This document shows, in pieces, positions 7,613 to 22,043 of a stretch of DNA of 50,896 nt (positions within the stretch are counted from its first letter, which is position 1; the number at the start of each line of letters is the position of its first letter). Origin of the DNA: Deltaproteobacteria bacterium (lineage in GTDB: Bacteria > Desulfobacterota > GWC2-55-46); contig JACPGB010000059.1 in assembly GCA_016182655.1 (NCBI GenBank), positions 1 through 50,896 of the forward strand, given 5' to 3'. The notes under the pieces were generated by a model, which was not told the origin of the DNA, searched no databases, and was given only the letters and a program-made list of their open reading frames with translations. The position numbers were made by a program, and so were the translations under genes.

Positions 7613-7833
7613 TAAACGCCTCCGCATCCGGGTTCGACCTTCACTGGATTTTAACCTGAACGGGGTTTACCTTAAAATGATTTTTGTTAGGATGCGCGTA
7701 AACACCTGCTTACGGGTCTTATGAAGTCGTTGAAATGGTTGCGCGAGGGGCGGGGTGCGTGATAAAAGTCACAACTTCTAATCTTCTCTTAATCTATCGG
7801 CCGTAAAATGTTTTGCACGAAAGGGAGGGACGC

Positions 7834-8334
7834 ATGAGCAGGGCAAAAATGATATTTTCAGGGCTTATCCTTGCGCTTTTCATGATAACGCCTGCGCTGG
7901 CCGGGATAGTGAACACGAAGGCCCCCGAGTTCACGCTCCAGGACCTTAACGGCAAACCGGTCTCCCTTTCCGATTTTAGGGGCAAGGTGGTCTTCATAGA
8001 CTTCTGGGCGAGCTGGTGCCCCCCGTGCAAAAAGGAGTTCCCGGAGCTCAACAGCTTCATAAGGGACTACGCGCCAAATACCGTGGTCCTCGCGGTGAAC
8101 GTAGACAGGAAGAGGTCGCATGTAGACGATTTTCTCTCCAGGATGTCCGGGCTCTCAGGCAATTTTCATGTACTCCTCGACCCCGAATCCACGATAATCC
8201 CCAAGTACGGGGCAAGGGCGATGCCGACTTCGTTCATCATCGACAAGGAAGGCGTCATACGCTTCGCTCATTACGGCTACAGGGACAGTGACGCAAAGGA
8301 ATGGGCCGCTGAAATAGAATCGCTCTTAAAGTGA
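7834..8334 (+). CDS. Periplasmic thioredoxin-like protein (TlpA/ResA type)
   Basis: 166 residues from ATG 7834 (AGGGAGGG ribosome site); a TTG at 7813 upstream is not needed. The signal peptide ends at about PALA (residue 23). The thioredoxin fold contains WASWCPPC with C62 and C65, and the cis-Pro loop ARAMPTSF. Such proteins reduce disulfides of exported apo-cytochromes or other clients. Downstream are DUF4266, DUF3570 and ApbE genes, a neighbourhood in which TlpA-like proteins commonly occur, so it probably serves that envelope redox system. Confidence 0.85.
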   Translation: MSRAKMIFSGLILALFMITPALAGIVNTKAPEFTLQDLNGKPVSLSDFRGKVVFIDFWASWCPPCKKEFPELNSFIRDYAPNTVVLAVNVDRKRSHVDDFLSRMSGLSGNFHVLLDPESTIIPKYGARAMPTSFIIDKEGVIRFAHYGYRDSDAKEWAAEIESLLK

Positions 8335-9830: not shown

Positions 9831-10002
9831 GCCTCCAAAAACCTTTTGGAATCGGCAGGATGCATCATTAACCACTCTGAGATCAGCTACCCGTAACAAA
9901 ACTCACCGAAAAGATTTCCTATGCGTTGTATCATGAGCCTCGTAATGAACGCCCTGGTTAATTTTGCTCTAATCTTCGATCTCTATAATGGGAGGCGTAA
10001 GG

Positions 10003-10116
10003 ATGAGGACGAAAATGGATGAGAGGAACGGGATCATGACTACCACCGGCATCTTCGAGATAATTGCGAACCTTGCGATCATAGTTACGATAGCCTCCGT
10101 AGTGCTCATGCCATAA
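10003..10116 (+). CDS. 37-residue single-helix membrane peptide
   Basis: ATG 10003 with GGAGG at 9991-9995 and a tidy TAA at 10116; its own intrinsic terminator follows. The N-terminus is charged (MRTKMDERNG), and a single hydrophobic helix starts at about residue 16 (TGIFEIIANLAIIVTIA) with a Glu near its beginning. The same build, including IF-x-I and L-A-I-[IV], is seen in the peptide at 20057, and the Glu-at-helix-start in all four peptides at 19634-20140. So I regard it as a distant member of that group. It does not match a named family that I recognise. A promoter was not identified: the TATAAT at 9984 would place the start of the RNA beyond the ribosome site. Confidence 0.6.
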   Translation: MRTKMDERNGIMTTTGIFEIIANLAIIVTIASVVLMP

Positions 10117-19359: not shown

Positions 19360-19482
19360 GTTTCACGCCATGAAACCTTGTTTCATGGAAGAAAAACGTT
19401 TCCTTTTTGAAAAAAAGCGGTAATTGGCCCGATTTTATTGCATTTTTATGCTCAAGCCTGTTATCTGTTTCATTTTTGAAAA
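19360..19482 (+). promoter_or_regulatory. Upstream activator repeats GTTTCA-N4/5-TGAAAC
   Basis: Four related inverted repeats: GTTTCA-N5-TGAAAC at 19360-19376; GTTTCA-N5-GAAAAA at 19380-19396; GTTTCC-N4-TGAAAA at 19398-19413; GTTTCA-N4-TGAAAA at 19467-19482. They lie about 80-200 bases upstream of a -24/-12 promoter, the usual place for enhancer-binding-protein sites. Similar repeats precede the sigma-54 activator gene at 20670. The 365-base gap 19269-19633 holds only these sites, the terminator and the promoter. Confidence 0.65.
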
Positions 19483-19561
19483 GATATTCCATGGAACATA
19501 GAATGGGTTGCCTCTGCTGAATATGCAATAAAAACAATAAGATATGGCTGATGTGGCCGTT

Positions 19562-19577
19562 TGGCATGCTTCTTGTA
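19562..19577 (+). promoter_or_regulatory. Sigma-54 (-24/-12) promoter of the tiny-peptide operon
   Basis: TGGCATG (19562-19568), four bases, TTGTA (19573-19577): the correct spacing for the sigma-54 consensus TGGCACG-N4-TTGCW, with T for C at two positions. Transcription would start near 19589, 45 bases before the first peptide gene. The activator gene and matching upstream repeats support the call. Confidence 0.75.
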
Positions 19578-19633: not shown

Positions 19634-19726
19634 ATGACGATAGAGGCCATTGAGTTGTTGATAGAGGCATCGGTCATCATAGCGGCCGGGATAATGGGGT
19701 TCGGACCTCTTGTGGTCGGCGCATGA
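19634..19726 (+). CDS. Tiny membrane peptide 1 (30 residues)
   Basis: ATG 19634 with GGGAGGTGG ribosome site 8 bases upstream; first gene after the sigma-54 promoter. It begins MTIEAIELLIE, then a hydrophobic helix ASVIIAAGIMGFGPLVV with three Gly and one Pro. Glu11 stands at the helix start, as in the sister peptides. An in-frame ATG far upstream (19544) precedes the promoter and is not the start. No known family recognised. Predicted to insert as a single helix in the inner membrane. Confidence 0.68.
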   Translation: MTIEAIELLIEASVIIAAGIMGFGPLVVGA

Positions 19727-19746
19727 GCAGGAGAAAGGAGGGATTC

Positions 19747-19839
19747 ATGGACAGGCACAAGATAGAGGTGATGGAGATAGTCGCGATATTCGTGAACCTT
19801 TCGGCAGTAACGTTGATTTCAAGGCTTGTCTTGTCATGA
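19747..19839 (+). CDS. Tiny membrane peptide 2 (30 residues)
   Basis: ATG 19747 with AAGGAGGG 6 bases upstream; 20 bp after peptide 1. The sequence opens with a charged tail (MDRHKIEVM), then E10 and a helix IVAIFVNLSAVTLIS ending in Arg. Its stop overlaps an in-frame ATG of the next gene (ATGA). The E-I-V-A-x-F/L-x-N-L core resembles F-E-I-I-A-N-L in the peptide at 10003. Unknown function. Confidence 0.68.
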   Translation: MDRHKIEVMEIVAIFVNLSAVTLISRLVLS

Positions 19840-19862
19840 GGGTGATGAAGGAGACCTGTGAG

Positions 19863-19964
19863 ATGAAGACGAATACCCGCCTGGCTGAAGCCGTGGCCCT
19901 GTTGCTCGGGATAGTAGCGCTCGTCGCAATGACGCTACTCCAGTCAGGGCGGTTCGCTGGCTGA
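19863..19964 (+). CDS. Tiny membrane peptide 3 (33 residues)
   Basis: ATG 19863 with GGAGA 9 bases upstream. In-frame ATGs at 19836 (overlapping the previous stop) and 19845 would add up to nine residues (MRVMKETCE), including a Cys. The chosen form starts MKTNTRLAE, with E9 at the start of the helix AVALLLGIVALVAMTLLQ, then SGRFAG. Same plan as its neighbours; no recognised family. Confidence 0.62.
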   Translation: MKTNTRLAEAVALLLGIVALVAMTLLQSGRFAG

Positions 19965-20056
19965 AAAAAGCTCGCGAAATCGTCTTCATCCTTTAACGAT
20001 ACCTTAATTTTGGCCATGTATAATGGTCCCGTAACACACGCAAGGAGGTAATGACG

Positions 20057-20140
20057 ATGAAAAAGAGGATCTTCCACATAGTAGAGGCGGCCGCCCACCT
20101 GGCGATAGTAATAGCGATAATCGCGGCTGTAGCGAGGTAA
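20057..20140 (+). CDS. Tiny membrane peptide 4 (27 residues)
   Basis: ATG 20057 with AAGGAGG (20042-20048) 8 bases upstream; the ATG at 20051 is too close to the ribosome site. A TATAAT at 20019-20024 (preceded by TG) gives it its own likely sigma-70 promoter, and a terminator follows, so it is separate from the sigma-54 transcript. The sequence starts with basic MKKRIFHIV, then E10 and helix AAAHLAIVIAIIAAVA, ending in Arg. IF-H-I-V-E and L-A-I-V echo IF-E-I-I and L-A-I-I in the peptide at 10003. Confidence 0.65.
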   Translation: MKKRIFHIVEAAAHLAIVIAIIAAVAR

Positions 20141-20148
20141 CGAACACG

Positions 20149-20173
20149 CGGGCCTGACGGCTGGGCCCGTTTT
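20149..20173 (+). terminator. Terminator after tiny peptide 4
   Basis: Arms CGGGCC (20149-20154) and GGCCCG (20164-20169) with a 9-base loop, followed by TTTT. Modest stem but well placed 8 bases after the stop. Confidence 0.6.
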
Positions 20174-20227
20174 CATAAAACTCCGCAATCAACCCCATCT
20201 TACATCCCCCCCAAACCGCTCTCCTCC

Positions 20228-20264
20228 AAACCCCTGTAAGGGTCAGGCCTTACAGGGGTTTTTC
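20228..20264 (+). terminator. Long perfect hairpin with T-tract
   Basis: 14-bp perfect stem, arms AAACCCCTGTAAGG (20228-20241) and CCTTACAGGGGTTT (20248-20261), 6-base loop, then TTCTTTG. Works as a second terminator behind the peptide gene; its A/T ends also allow reverse function. Confidence 0.75.
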
Positions 20265-20558: not shown

Positions 20559-20631
20559 TGTTTCAAAATGCAACAATTGTTCCTCAAATGAAACATTTGT
20601 CATTGATTTCAAAAATGGGCCGCCATATAAT
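20559..20631 (+). promoter_or_regulatory. Promoter of the sigma-54 activator with GTTTCA-type sites
   Basis: TTGATT (20603-20608), 17-bp spacer, TATAAT (20626-20631): a good sigma-70 promoter. Immediately upstream are TGTTTCA-AAA-TGCAACA (20559-20575) and GTTCCT-N4-TGAAAC (20579-20594), of the same type as the repeats before the sigma-54 promoter at 19562. This suggests the activator regulates its own gene. Confidence 0.65.
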
Positions 20632-20669: not shown

Positions 20670-22043
20670 ATGGAAGCATCCGTCATAAACAACAACGAAG
20701 AGAACCTCATAAGCCTGAACAGCGACGCGATACTGAACAGCATCGCAGACGGGGTCGTGGTCATAGGGCTCAACCACAAGATACTCTTTGTGAACCGGGC
20801 GGCCAAGGAGATACTCGGGAGGGCCGGGGCAGACGACCTCCTTAACTGCGCCAAGTGCAGTGACGTCATGGGACATTCGGCCTGCACCTTCGGCTGCCTC
20901 ATAAACACCACCATCAAGACGGGCGAGCACCTTTACAACTACGAGGCGGTATTCGAAGCCGGCGACAGGAAGGTCACGCTCTCCATCAATACGGCGCTCC
21001 TTAAAGACAAGAACGACAACGTCATAGGCGGGATAGAGATTTTCAGGGATGTCTCGCTCATAAAGGAATTGAAGGACGAGCTCAAGGGCAAGTATTCTTT
21101 CGAGAACGTCGTCGGCAAGGACCACAAGATGCACGAGGTCTTCGAGCTCCTGAAAGAGGTCGCGCCGACAAAGGCGACGGTGCTCATAGAAGGCGAGACC
21201 GGCACAGGCAAGGAGCTTATCGCTAACGCCATACACCACAACTCGCCGCGCTCGAACGGGCCTCTCGTGAAGGTCAACTGCGCGGCCCTTTCCGAGGGTC
21301 TACTCGAGAGCGAGCTATTCGGCCATGTGAAAGGCTCGTTCACCGGGGCCATTGCAGACAAGCTCGGCAGGTTCGAGACGGCCGACGAAGGGACGATATT
21401 CCTGGACGAAATAGGCGACATTACGCCGCACACACAGGTAAGGCTCTTAAGGGTCTTGCAGGAGGGCGAGTTCGAGAGGGTCGGCGGCACAAAGACGATA
21501 AAGGTGAATGTCCGCGTCATCGCCGCGACGAACAAGGACTTGAAGGCCGCCGTAAGAAGGGGCGAGTTCAGGGAAGACCTCTACTACAGGCTCAAGATCG
21601 TCCCCATCCAGCTTCCCGCGCTACGCGAGAGAAAAAAAGACATACCGCTCCTTGTCAGGCACTTTATCGACAAGTTCAACAAAGAGATGGGCATGGAGAT
21701 AACGAATATCTCGCCGAACGCGATGGAGCTCCTTATGGAGTACGACTACCCCGGCAACATCAGGGAGCTCGAGCATGTGATAGAGCACGCATTCGTCCGT
21801 TGCCCTGGTAAGACCCTTTCCACGGAGCACTTCCCGAAGGACATACAGGAGCTCAAGAGCAAGGGGGCTTTGTCCAATGTGATTCGCGAGCCCGAGCCCA
21901 TGAAGGCGCTTGAGAGGCAGGTGATCGTGAACGCGCTCGATGAGACAGGCTGGAAGTACAACGACGCCGCGAGCCTCTTGAAGATGAGCAGGACAACACT
22001 CTGGCGGAGGATGAAGGAACTGCAGATAGTGAAAGGGAGATGA
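20670..22043 (+). CDS. Sigma-54-dependent activator with Cys-rich PAS domain
   Basis: 457 residues from ATG 20670 (AAGGAG 10 bases upstream); GTG 20661 is too near the ribosome site. Domains: N-terminal PAS (about 15-130) containing C60, C63, C72 and C76 (C-x2-C-x8-C-x3-C); AAA+ domain (about 145-380) with Walker A GETGTGKE, the sigma-54 contact loop GSFTGA, Walker B GTIFLDEIGD and the arginine-finger region REDLYYRLKI; C-terminal Fis-type helix-turn-helix (YNDAASLLKMSRTTLWRRM). No receiver domain, so the signal probably enters through PAS, where the cysteines suggest redox or metal sensing. Likely target: the tiny-peptide operon upstream and its own promoter. No histidine kinase is adjacent. 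Confidence 0.92.
   Translation: MEASVINNNEENLISLNSDAILNSIADGVVVIGLNHKILFVNRAAKEILGRAGADDLLNCAKCSDVMGHSACTFGCLINTTIKTGEHLYNYEAVFEAGDRKVTLSINTALLKDKNDNVIGGIEIFRDVSLIKELKDELKGKYSFENVVGKDHKMHEVFELLKEVAPTKATVLIEGETGTGKELIANAIHHNSPRSNGPLVKVNCAALSEGLLESELFGHVKGSFTGAIADKLGRFETADEGTIFLDEIGDITPHTQVRLLRVLQEGEFERVGGTKTIKVNVRVIAATNKDLKAAVRRGEFREDLYYRLKIVPIQLPALRERKKDIPLLVRHFIDKFNKEMGMEITNISPNAMELLMEYDYPGNIRELEHVIEHAFVRCPGKTLSTEHFPKDIQELKSKGALSNVIREPEPMKALERQVIVNALDETGWKYNDAASLLKMSRTTLWRRMKELQIVKGR

Follow-up and report, generated by a model that had tools for sequence, protein, structure and literature searches.

Single-helix proteins of 27–33 amino acids (aa) that carry no catalytic domain act by membrane insertion or by binding membrane proteins, and such small proteins are usually found singly. 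KdpF, CydX and AcrZ, for example, are tiny single-transmembrane (TM) accessory subunits that are encoded with, or bind to, one defined complex. In the Psp system, which responds to membrane damage, small membrane proteins are controlled by the sigma-54 activator PspF. PMC12719787 describes YohP of E. coli as a 27-aa stress-induced small membrane protein and states that YohP-like peptides lower the membrane potential. As a class, small membrane proteins are already known; what appears to be undescribed in the open-licence full text that was searched is the multi-copy family under a common promoter reported here, together with its sigma-54 operon. Both were identified in a Deltaproteobacteria bacterium (assembly GCA_016182655.1), where four tiny open reading frames (ORFs) follow one another in a 50,896-nucleotide stretch of DNA, referred to as the window. 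Their products resemble YohP in length, in the single helix, in the lack of a catalytic domain and in a stress-type induction that is here predicted, a likeness drawn from the text of PMC12719787, but that text does not present YohP as one of many copies behind a common promoter element. As in the Psp system, a sigma-54 activator would control small membrane proteins. However, the activator carries an N-terminal PAS domain and scores 288 bits against a PspF cut-off of 443.55, and so is not a PspF orthologue; in addition, the tiny proteins are about 30 aa long, and no pspA, pspB or pspC gene lies beside the operon, whose neighbours are a DUF1858 and a 2-hydroxyacid dehydrogenase gene. KdpF, CydX and AcrZ are similar in build, whereas most copies of the present family stand alone behind a common promoter.

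Each of the four ORFs encodes fewer than 50 residues, which form a single hydrophobic helix flanked by few others, as judged from the hydrophobicity of the translations (Table 1). They are preceded by the Shine-Dalgarno (SD) sequences GGAGGTG, AAGGAGG, AAGGAG and AAGGAGGT at spacings of 6, 5, 9 and 7, respectively. A DNA search located the locus in three relatives of the same genus (G001, G003 and G004; 71–79% identity), in which the starts, stops and SDs of ORF1–4 are all kept, the start of ORF1 being GTG in two of them, and the frame of all four ORFs is conserved across the four genomes. In this same-genus comparison the pooled in-frame pN/pS lies between 0.25 and 0.49, and shifted-frame controls give about 1 or higher for ORF1, ORF3 and ORF4. 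The shifted frames of ORF2 also give 0.6–0.7; ORF2 is therefore the weakest coding case, with a weaker synonymous bias, and its reality rests more on the conserved start, stop, SD and position than on the codon pattern. An origin of the ORFs as chance frames within a regulatory RNA or intergenic DNA would fit their falling below the length that most gene callers accept, but frame-specific purifying selection, the kept starts and SDs and profile matches in 18 of 30 genomes of the taxonomic family make this practically negligible; for ORF1, ORF3 and ORF4 it is ruled out by the codon substitution pattern. All four ORFs are real and under purifying selection. The initial annotation had held them to be real, functional and equipped with SDs, and had named conserved-ORF and codon-substitution analysis as the check; all four are present with their SDs, no start or SD is lost, and synteny, the codon substitution patterns and the conserved promoter speak for function. 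For ORF3, an alternative start at 19836 would give 42 aa and overlaps the ORF2 stop as ATGA, but the internal start at 19863 is probably the one used, since in G017 the orthologue exists in the shorter version alone and is preceded by a strong SD. ORF4 has an alternative ATG at 20051.

Table 1. Features of the tiny-ORF locus and of related copies. Positions refer to the window unless a locus is named; enhancer and promoter elements are predicted, and pN/pS values are pooled in-frame estimates.
Feature	Position	Strand	Remarks
Direct-repeat promoter of the fifth in-window copy	9958-9989	+	
Fifth in-window core-family copy, 37 aa, MRTKMDERNGIMTTTGIFEIIANLAIIVTIASVVLMP	10003-10116	+	pN/pS 0.30; own terminator-like hairpin
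Enhancer site 1, TGTTTCATGGAAGAAAAA, about -182/-183 from the sigma-54 promoter	19379-19396	.	same position in relatives' loci
Enhancer site 2, CGTTTCCTTTTTGAAAAA, about -164/-165	19397-19414	.	
Enhancer site 3, TGTTTCATTTTTGAAAAG, about -96	19466-19483	.	
Sigma-54 promoter, TGGCATGCTTCTTGTA	19562-19577	+	conserved in relatives of the operon
ORF1, 30-aa single-TM protein, MTIEAIELLIEASVIIAAGIMGFGPLVVGA	19634-19726	+	pN/pS 0.31
ORF2, 30-aa single-TM protein, MDRHKIEVMEIVAIFVNLSAVTLISRLVLS	19747-19839	+	pN/pS 0.49
ORF3, 33-aa single-TM protein, MKTNTRLAEAVALLLGIVALVAMTLLQSGRFAG	19863-19964	+	pN/pS 0.39
Direct-repeat promoter immediately 5' of ORF4: TTAAC-N4-CCTTAAT, 10 bp, TATAAT	19993-20024	+	
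ORF4, 27-aa single-TM protein, MKKRIFHIVEAAAHLAIVIAIIAAVAR, multi-copy core family member	20057-20140	+	pN/pS 0.25
GGGCC...GGGCCC hairpin followed by GTTTT, 3' of ORF4	20150-20174	+	kept in same genus
Intrinsic terminator downstream of the operon	20228-20261	+	
Enhancer-type site 5' of the activator gene, TGTTCCTCAAATGAAACA	20578-20595	.	
Activator: PAS, sigma-54 AAA+ and Fis-type HTH	20670-22043	+	
Tandem array of tiny TM genes, L189	7226-7611		
Tandem array of tiny TM genes, L190	6777-7274		
Tandem array of tiny TM genes, L192	1603-2064		

The dedicated sigma-54 promoter that had also been proposed is present and conserved, and is accompanied by three phased enhancer sites. These predicted sites, read from the sequence, have the consensus TGTTTCA-N4-TGAAACA and would be expected by chance at 0.34 per shuffled sequence. 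In nine genomes the three sites lie near -182, -164 and -96 of the promoter and one more stands before the activator gene, which suggests that the activator is autoregulated. When the paired-site pattern was searched in the taxonomic family, it returned the operon and little else, with control counts near zero. The order of DUF1858 gene, sigma-54 promoter, tiny ORFs and PAS-sigma-54 activator is kept in G001, G003, G004, G006, G010, G017, G019 and L038, and likewise in G022 as far as its contig reaches, which stops short of the activator. Across the taxonomic family an operon locus holds about two to six tiny single-helix ORFs, most loci having a P3-like and a P4-like ORF; the locus of G005 has one clear tiny ORF and that of G008 one with a weak SD. 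L037 encodes an activator of 72% identity without enhancer sites or tiny ORFs.

The helix-turn-helix of the activator, SRTTLWRRMKEL, is nearly invariant among orthologues, in agreement with the conserved enhancer sites, and the neighbouring activator is probably the protein that binds them. Its PAS domain, in the window and in the orthologues, contains a conserved KC-x7-H-x2-C-x3-C pattern, suggestive of redox, metal or possibly Fe-S signal sensing. In the host genome (G000) the enhancer motif occurs, with up to two mismatches, at 10 places. Three of these are in the tiny-ORF locus and most of the others belong to one further locus, present on two contig ends, in which a sigma-54 promoter precedes genes for a DedA-type (VTT domain) protein and an MscS channel with a cNMP-binding domain. 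The same enhancer-promoter layout before DedA-MscS is found in two genomes only, G000 and G004. On the strength of this layout, DedA-MscS appears to be a further target of the sigma-54 activator, which points to an envelope or membrane response. Whereas G004 has an intact DedA gene, the DedA-type gene of G000 (L224 on contig C57, reverse strand 501-1147) is divided between two ORFs that are out of frame with each other, owing to either a real frameshift or an assembly error. The end of C57 and the start of C9 are almost alike over a stretch that includes enhancer sites and a terminator, and C9 continues into a hemerythrin-like gene (DUF2249-type by eye).

The initial annotation missed this DedA-MscS link as well as the promoter of ORF4 and the multi-copy family to which ORF4 belongs. 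A profile of ORF4 orthologues finds further copies, namely one elsewhere in the window, tandem clusters and single copies. The larger profile A3, which gave the matches in 18 of 30 genomes, finds up to nine copies per genome; as the family sequences are related, these counts are not independent trials. By these searches the core family is lineage-restricted, multi-copy and previously unnamed. Its members share the motif E/D-x-x-A-[NHS]-L-[AT]-[VI] at the helix start of a 25–40-aa ORF with an SD, as does ORF4, and both the fifth in-window copy and the first tandem copy show purifying selection. In a draw of 395 genomes of the phylum, profile matches came from this taxonomic family alone, bar three weak partial ones in long frames, and no match was obtained in 12 genomes reached via named loci. 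One of these 12 (L038/G438) does contain tiny ORFs, too divergent to be picked up by the profile, and for this reason a lack of the core family outside the taxonomic family is unproven.

In an arrangement conserved across genomes, ubiE is separated from a CGGC-domain gene near ubiB by a tandem array of three to four tiny TM genes. One such cluster, together with the finding that several genomes have the operon 3' of an RND efflux operon, would agree with the proteins being accessory subunits in the manner of KdpF, CydX or AcrZ, each binding one large membrane complex, with paralogues fitted to different complexes. The size, the one helix and the charged ends fit this proposal too, and the acid and the [NHS] residue could dock as a pair on a partner helix. 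Against it, no copy lies inside the operon of a complex, the contexts differ (dinB, ubiE, PGA_cap/DUF1858), and the copies that belong neither to the operon nor to a tandem array are mostly solitary genes, each with a promoter of its own; we regard such a role as possible but doubtful.

The initial annotation had also claimed that the four proteins share a Glu at the start of the helix. An acidic residue, E or D, is indeed present at this position in every aligned sequence (P1 6/6, P2 5/5, P3 11/11 and core family 35/35), and is thus common to ORF1–3 and ORF4, but the residue had been misassigned in ORF1, where the Glu conserved furthest is E7 (IELLIE) and the E of IEASVII is kept within the genus only. 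Counted from the acid, the core consensus reads E/D(0) in 35/35, A(+3), N/H/S(+4), L(+5), A(+6), V/I(+7), I(+11), V(+12) and S/A(+13). Small residues are favoured at +3, +6, +10 and +13; as these positions would share one face of the helix, the residue pattern suggests helix packing. When ORF1–3 were compared with the core family by hhalign, the E-values were 0.17, 0.007 and 0.009, at low probability, leaving homology without statistical support. A type IV pilin-like origin was rejected, as the prepilin peptidase site with Glu at +5 is absent and the Gly is not conserved; where a Gly is present in the tiny ORFs, the Glu stands at +3, as opposed to the +5 of pilins.

In agreement with the view that no named family could be recognized, searches of Pfam, NCBIfam, PHROGs and PADLOC returned no family above the curated cut-off or with a significant E-value; the best curated-family score was that of NF040912 (E 0.11; 12.4 bits against a cut-off of 35), and PDB sequences gave chance-level matches only. 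A phage or defence origin was dismissed given the lack of a PHROG or PADLOC match, and an RNA element given the lack of an Rfam match in the window. Exported signalling or antimicrobial peptides of a leaderless bacteriocin-like or pheromone-like kind could also be expected to occur as tandem sets of similar short paralogues. However, no exporter, immunity or processing gene is kept with the copies, there is no cleavage motif and the sequence stops where the helix ends, so that export is very improbable.

We lean slightly towards the hypothesis that the locus is an inducible membrane-response operon, the products of which would be stress-induced membrane modulators packing helix to helix. From among the roles listed in the initial annotation, namely small regulators, subunits of membrane complexes, and pore or stress peptides, the sequence by itself does not single out one. 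According to this model, the PAS-type sensor and sigma-54 activator would bind the three phased enhancer sites and drive ORF1–4 from the sigma-54 promoter, as well as DedA and the MscS-type channel elsewhere in the genome. The products would be single-helix inner-membrane proteins with a short charged N-terminus, and, with the invariant acid where the helix begins and, among core-family members, a face lined by small residues, the helices would probably pack with each other or with larger membrane proteins. As a result, membrane permeability, fluidity or transporter activity may be altered under envelope or respiratory stress, a type of signal to which the DedA/MscS co-regulation and the PAS sensor point. 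It speaks against this reading that no partner gene adjoins all copies.

ORF4 is predicted to be transcribed from two promoters, that of the sigma-54 operon and its own direct-repeat element. The element has the consensus YTAAY-N4-YYYTAAT-N10-TATAAT, with a 7-bp direct repeat and a 4-bp spacer at the -35 position. The host genome contains exactly seven exact matches, 7/7 before a tiny TM ORF with an SD, and three of these sites, on contigs C1, C47 and C51, represent new subfamilies. In the taxonomic family the element has 52 exact matches, compared with 0 for the reversed pattern in the genomes searched with that pattern. A tiny TM ORF follows the element at 38 of the 51 sites that could be read; laxer rules raise the count to 39, including one before a TlpA gene. 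By comparison, such an ORF with an SD follows 21 of 1200 random window positions (1.8%), tiny-ORF counts being dependent on the SD and hydrophobicity filters applied. Conversely, the element, with up to two mismatches, lies within 260 nt of 44 of the 54 core members. The M. tuberculosis regulator PhoP binds 7-bp direct repeats with a 4-bp spacer, and boxes of the OmpR/PhoB family are alike in the 7-bp repeat, the spacer and the -35 region [PMC4832192]. The repeat geometry thus suggests that the second promoter is of the response-regulator type, although the letters YTAAY-N4-YYYTAAT differ from those of the Pho-like repeats before pstS in the host genome. Phosphate (PhoB) control was rejected, as the pst operon lacks the element, which is absent from pstS even at three mismatches; the region upstream of pstS has Pho-like repeats of its own, CTGTAAC-N4-CTGTAAC (L333, about 395–470).

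Multi-copy, tandem, lineage-restricted single-helix proteins of about 30 aa also bring to mind type I membrane toxins (TisB, Hok, Ibs, Ldr), which would lower the proton-motive force and be silenced by antisense RNA, and a reduction of membrane potential is what PMC12719787 states for YohP-like peptides. Several features make toxins improbable: the distance between the -10 and the start codon, taken as an estimate of the leader, is mostly about 15–70 nt, with no long 5' region that could hide the SD, the window has no Rfam match, and the copies share activator-type promoters, with several different peptides encoded in one sigma-54 operon.

For membrane modulators as preferred above, the wiring has a further implication. 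Since most ORF4 paralogues share the second, response-regulator-type promoter, different copies could be deployed under different signals. More tentatively, and with well under even confidence, we propose a regulatory layer of two promoters devoted almost wholly to helices of about 30 residues that would assemble combinatorially via an acid-anchored small-residue face; if so, the make-up of the membrane device would depend on which copies are expressed. In any case, the direct-repeat promoter can serve as bait for unannotated membrane peptides across a whole genome, at a low background, and the peptides that it retrieves share one invariant acidic residue. The set of paralogues, the regulator and the co-regulated DedA and MscS provide an entry to what tiny membrane proteins do.

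Some of the remaining element sites precede genes for TlpA-like thioredoxins. In the window, an element with one mismatch (7778-7809) stands before a TlpA-like thioredoxin gene (7813-8334), and TlpA-like genes of G017 and G012 (L315 and L307) have an exact copy in front of them. In L302 and L328 (G013 and G020), the element is found before a gene for a 179-aa, secreted-looking protein of unknown type.
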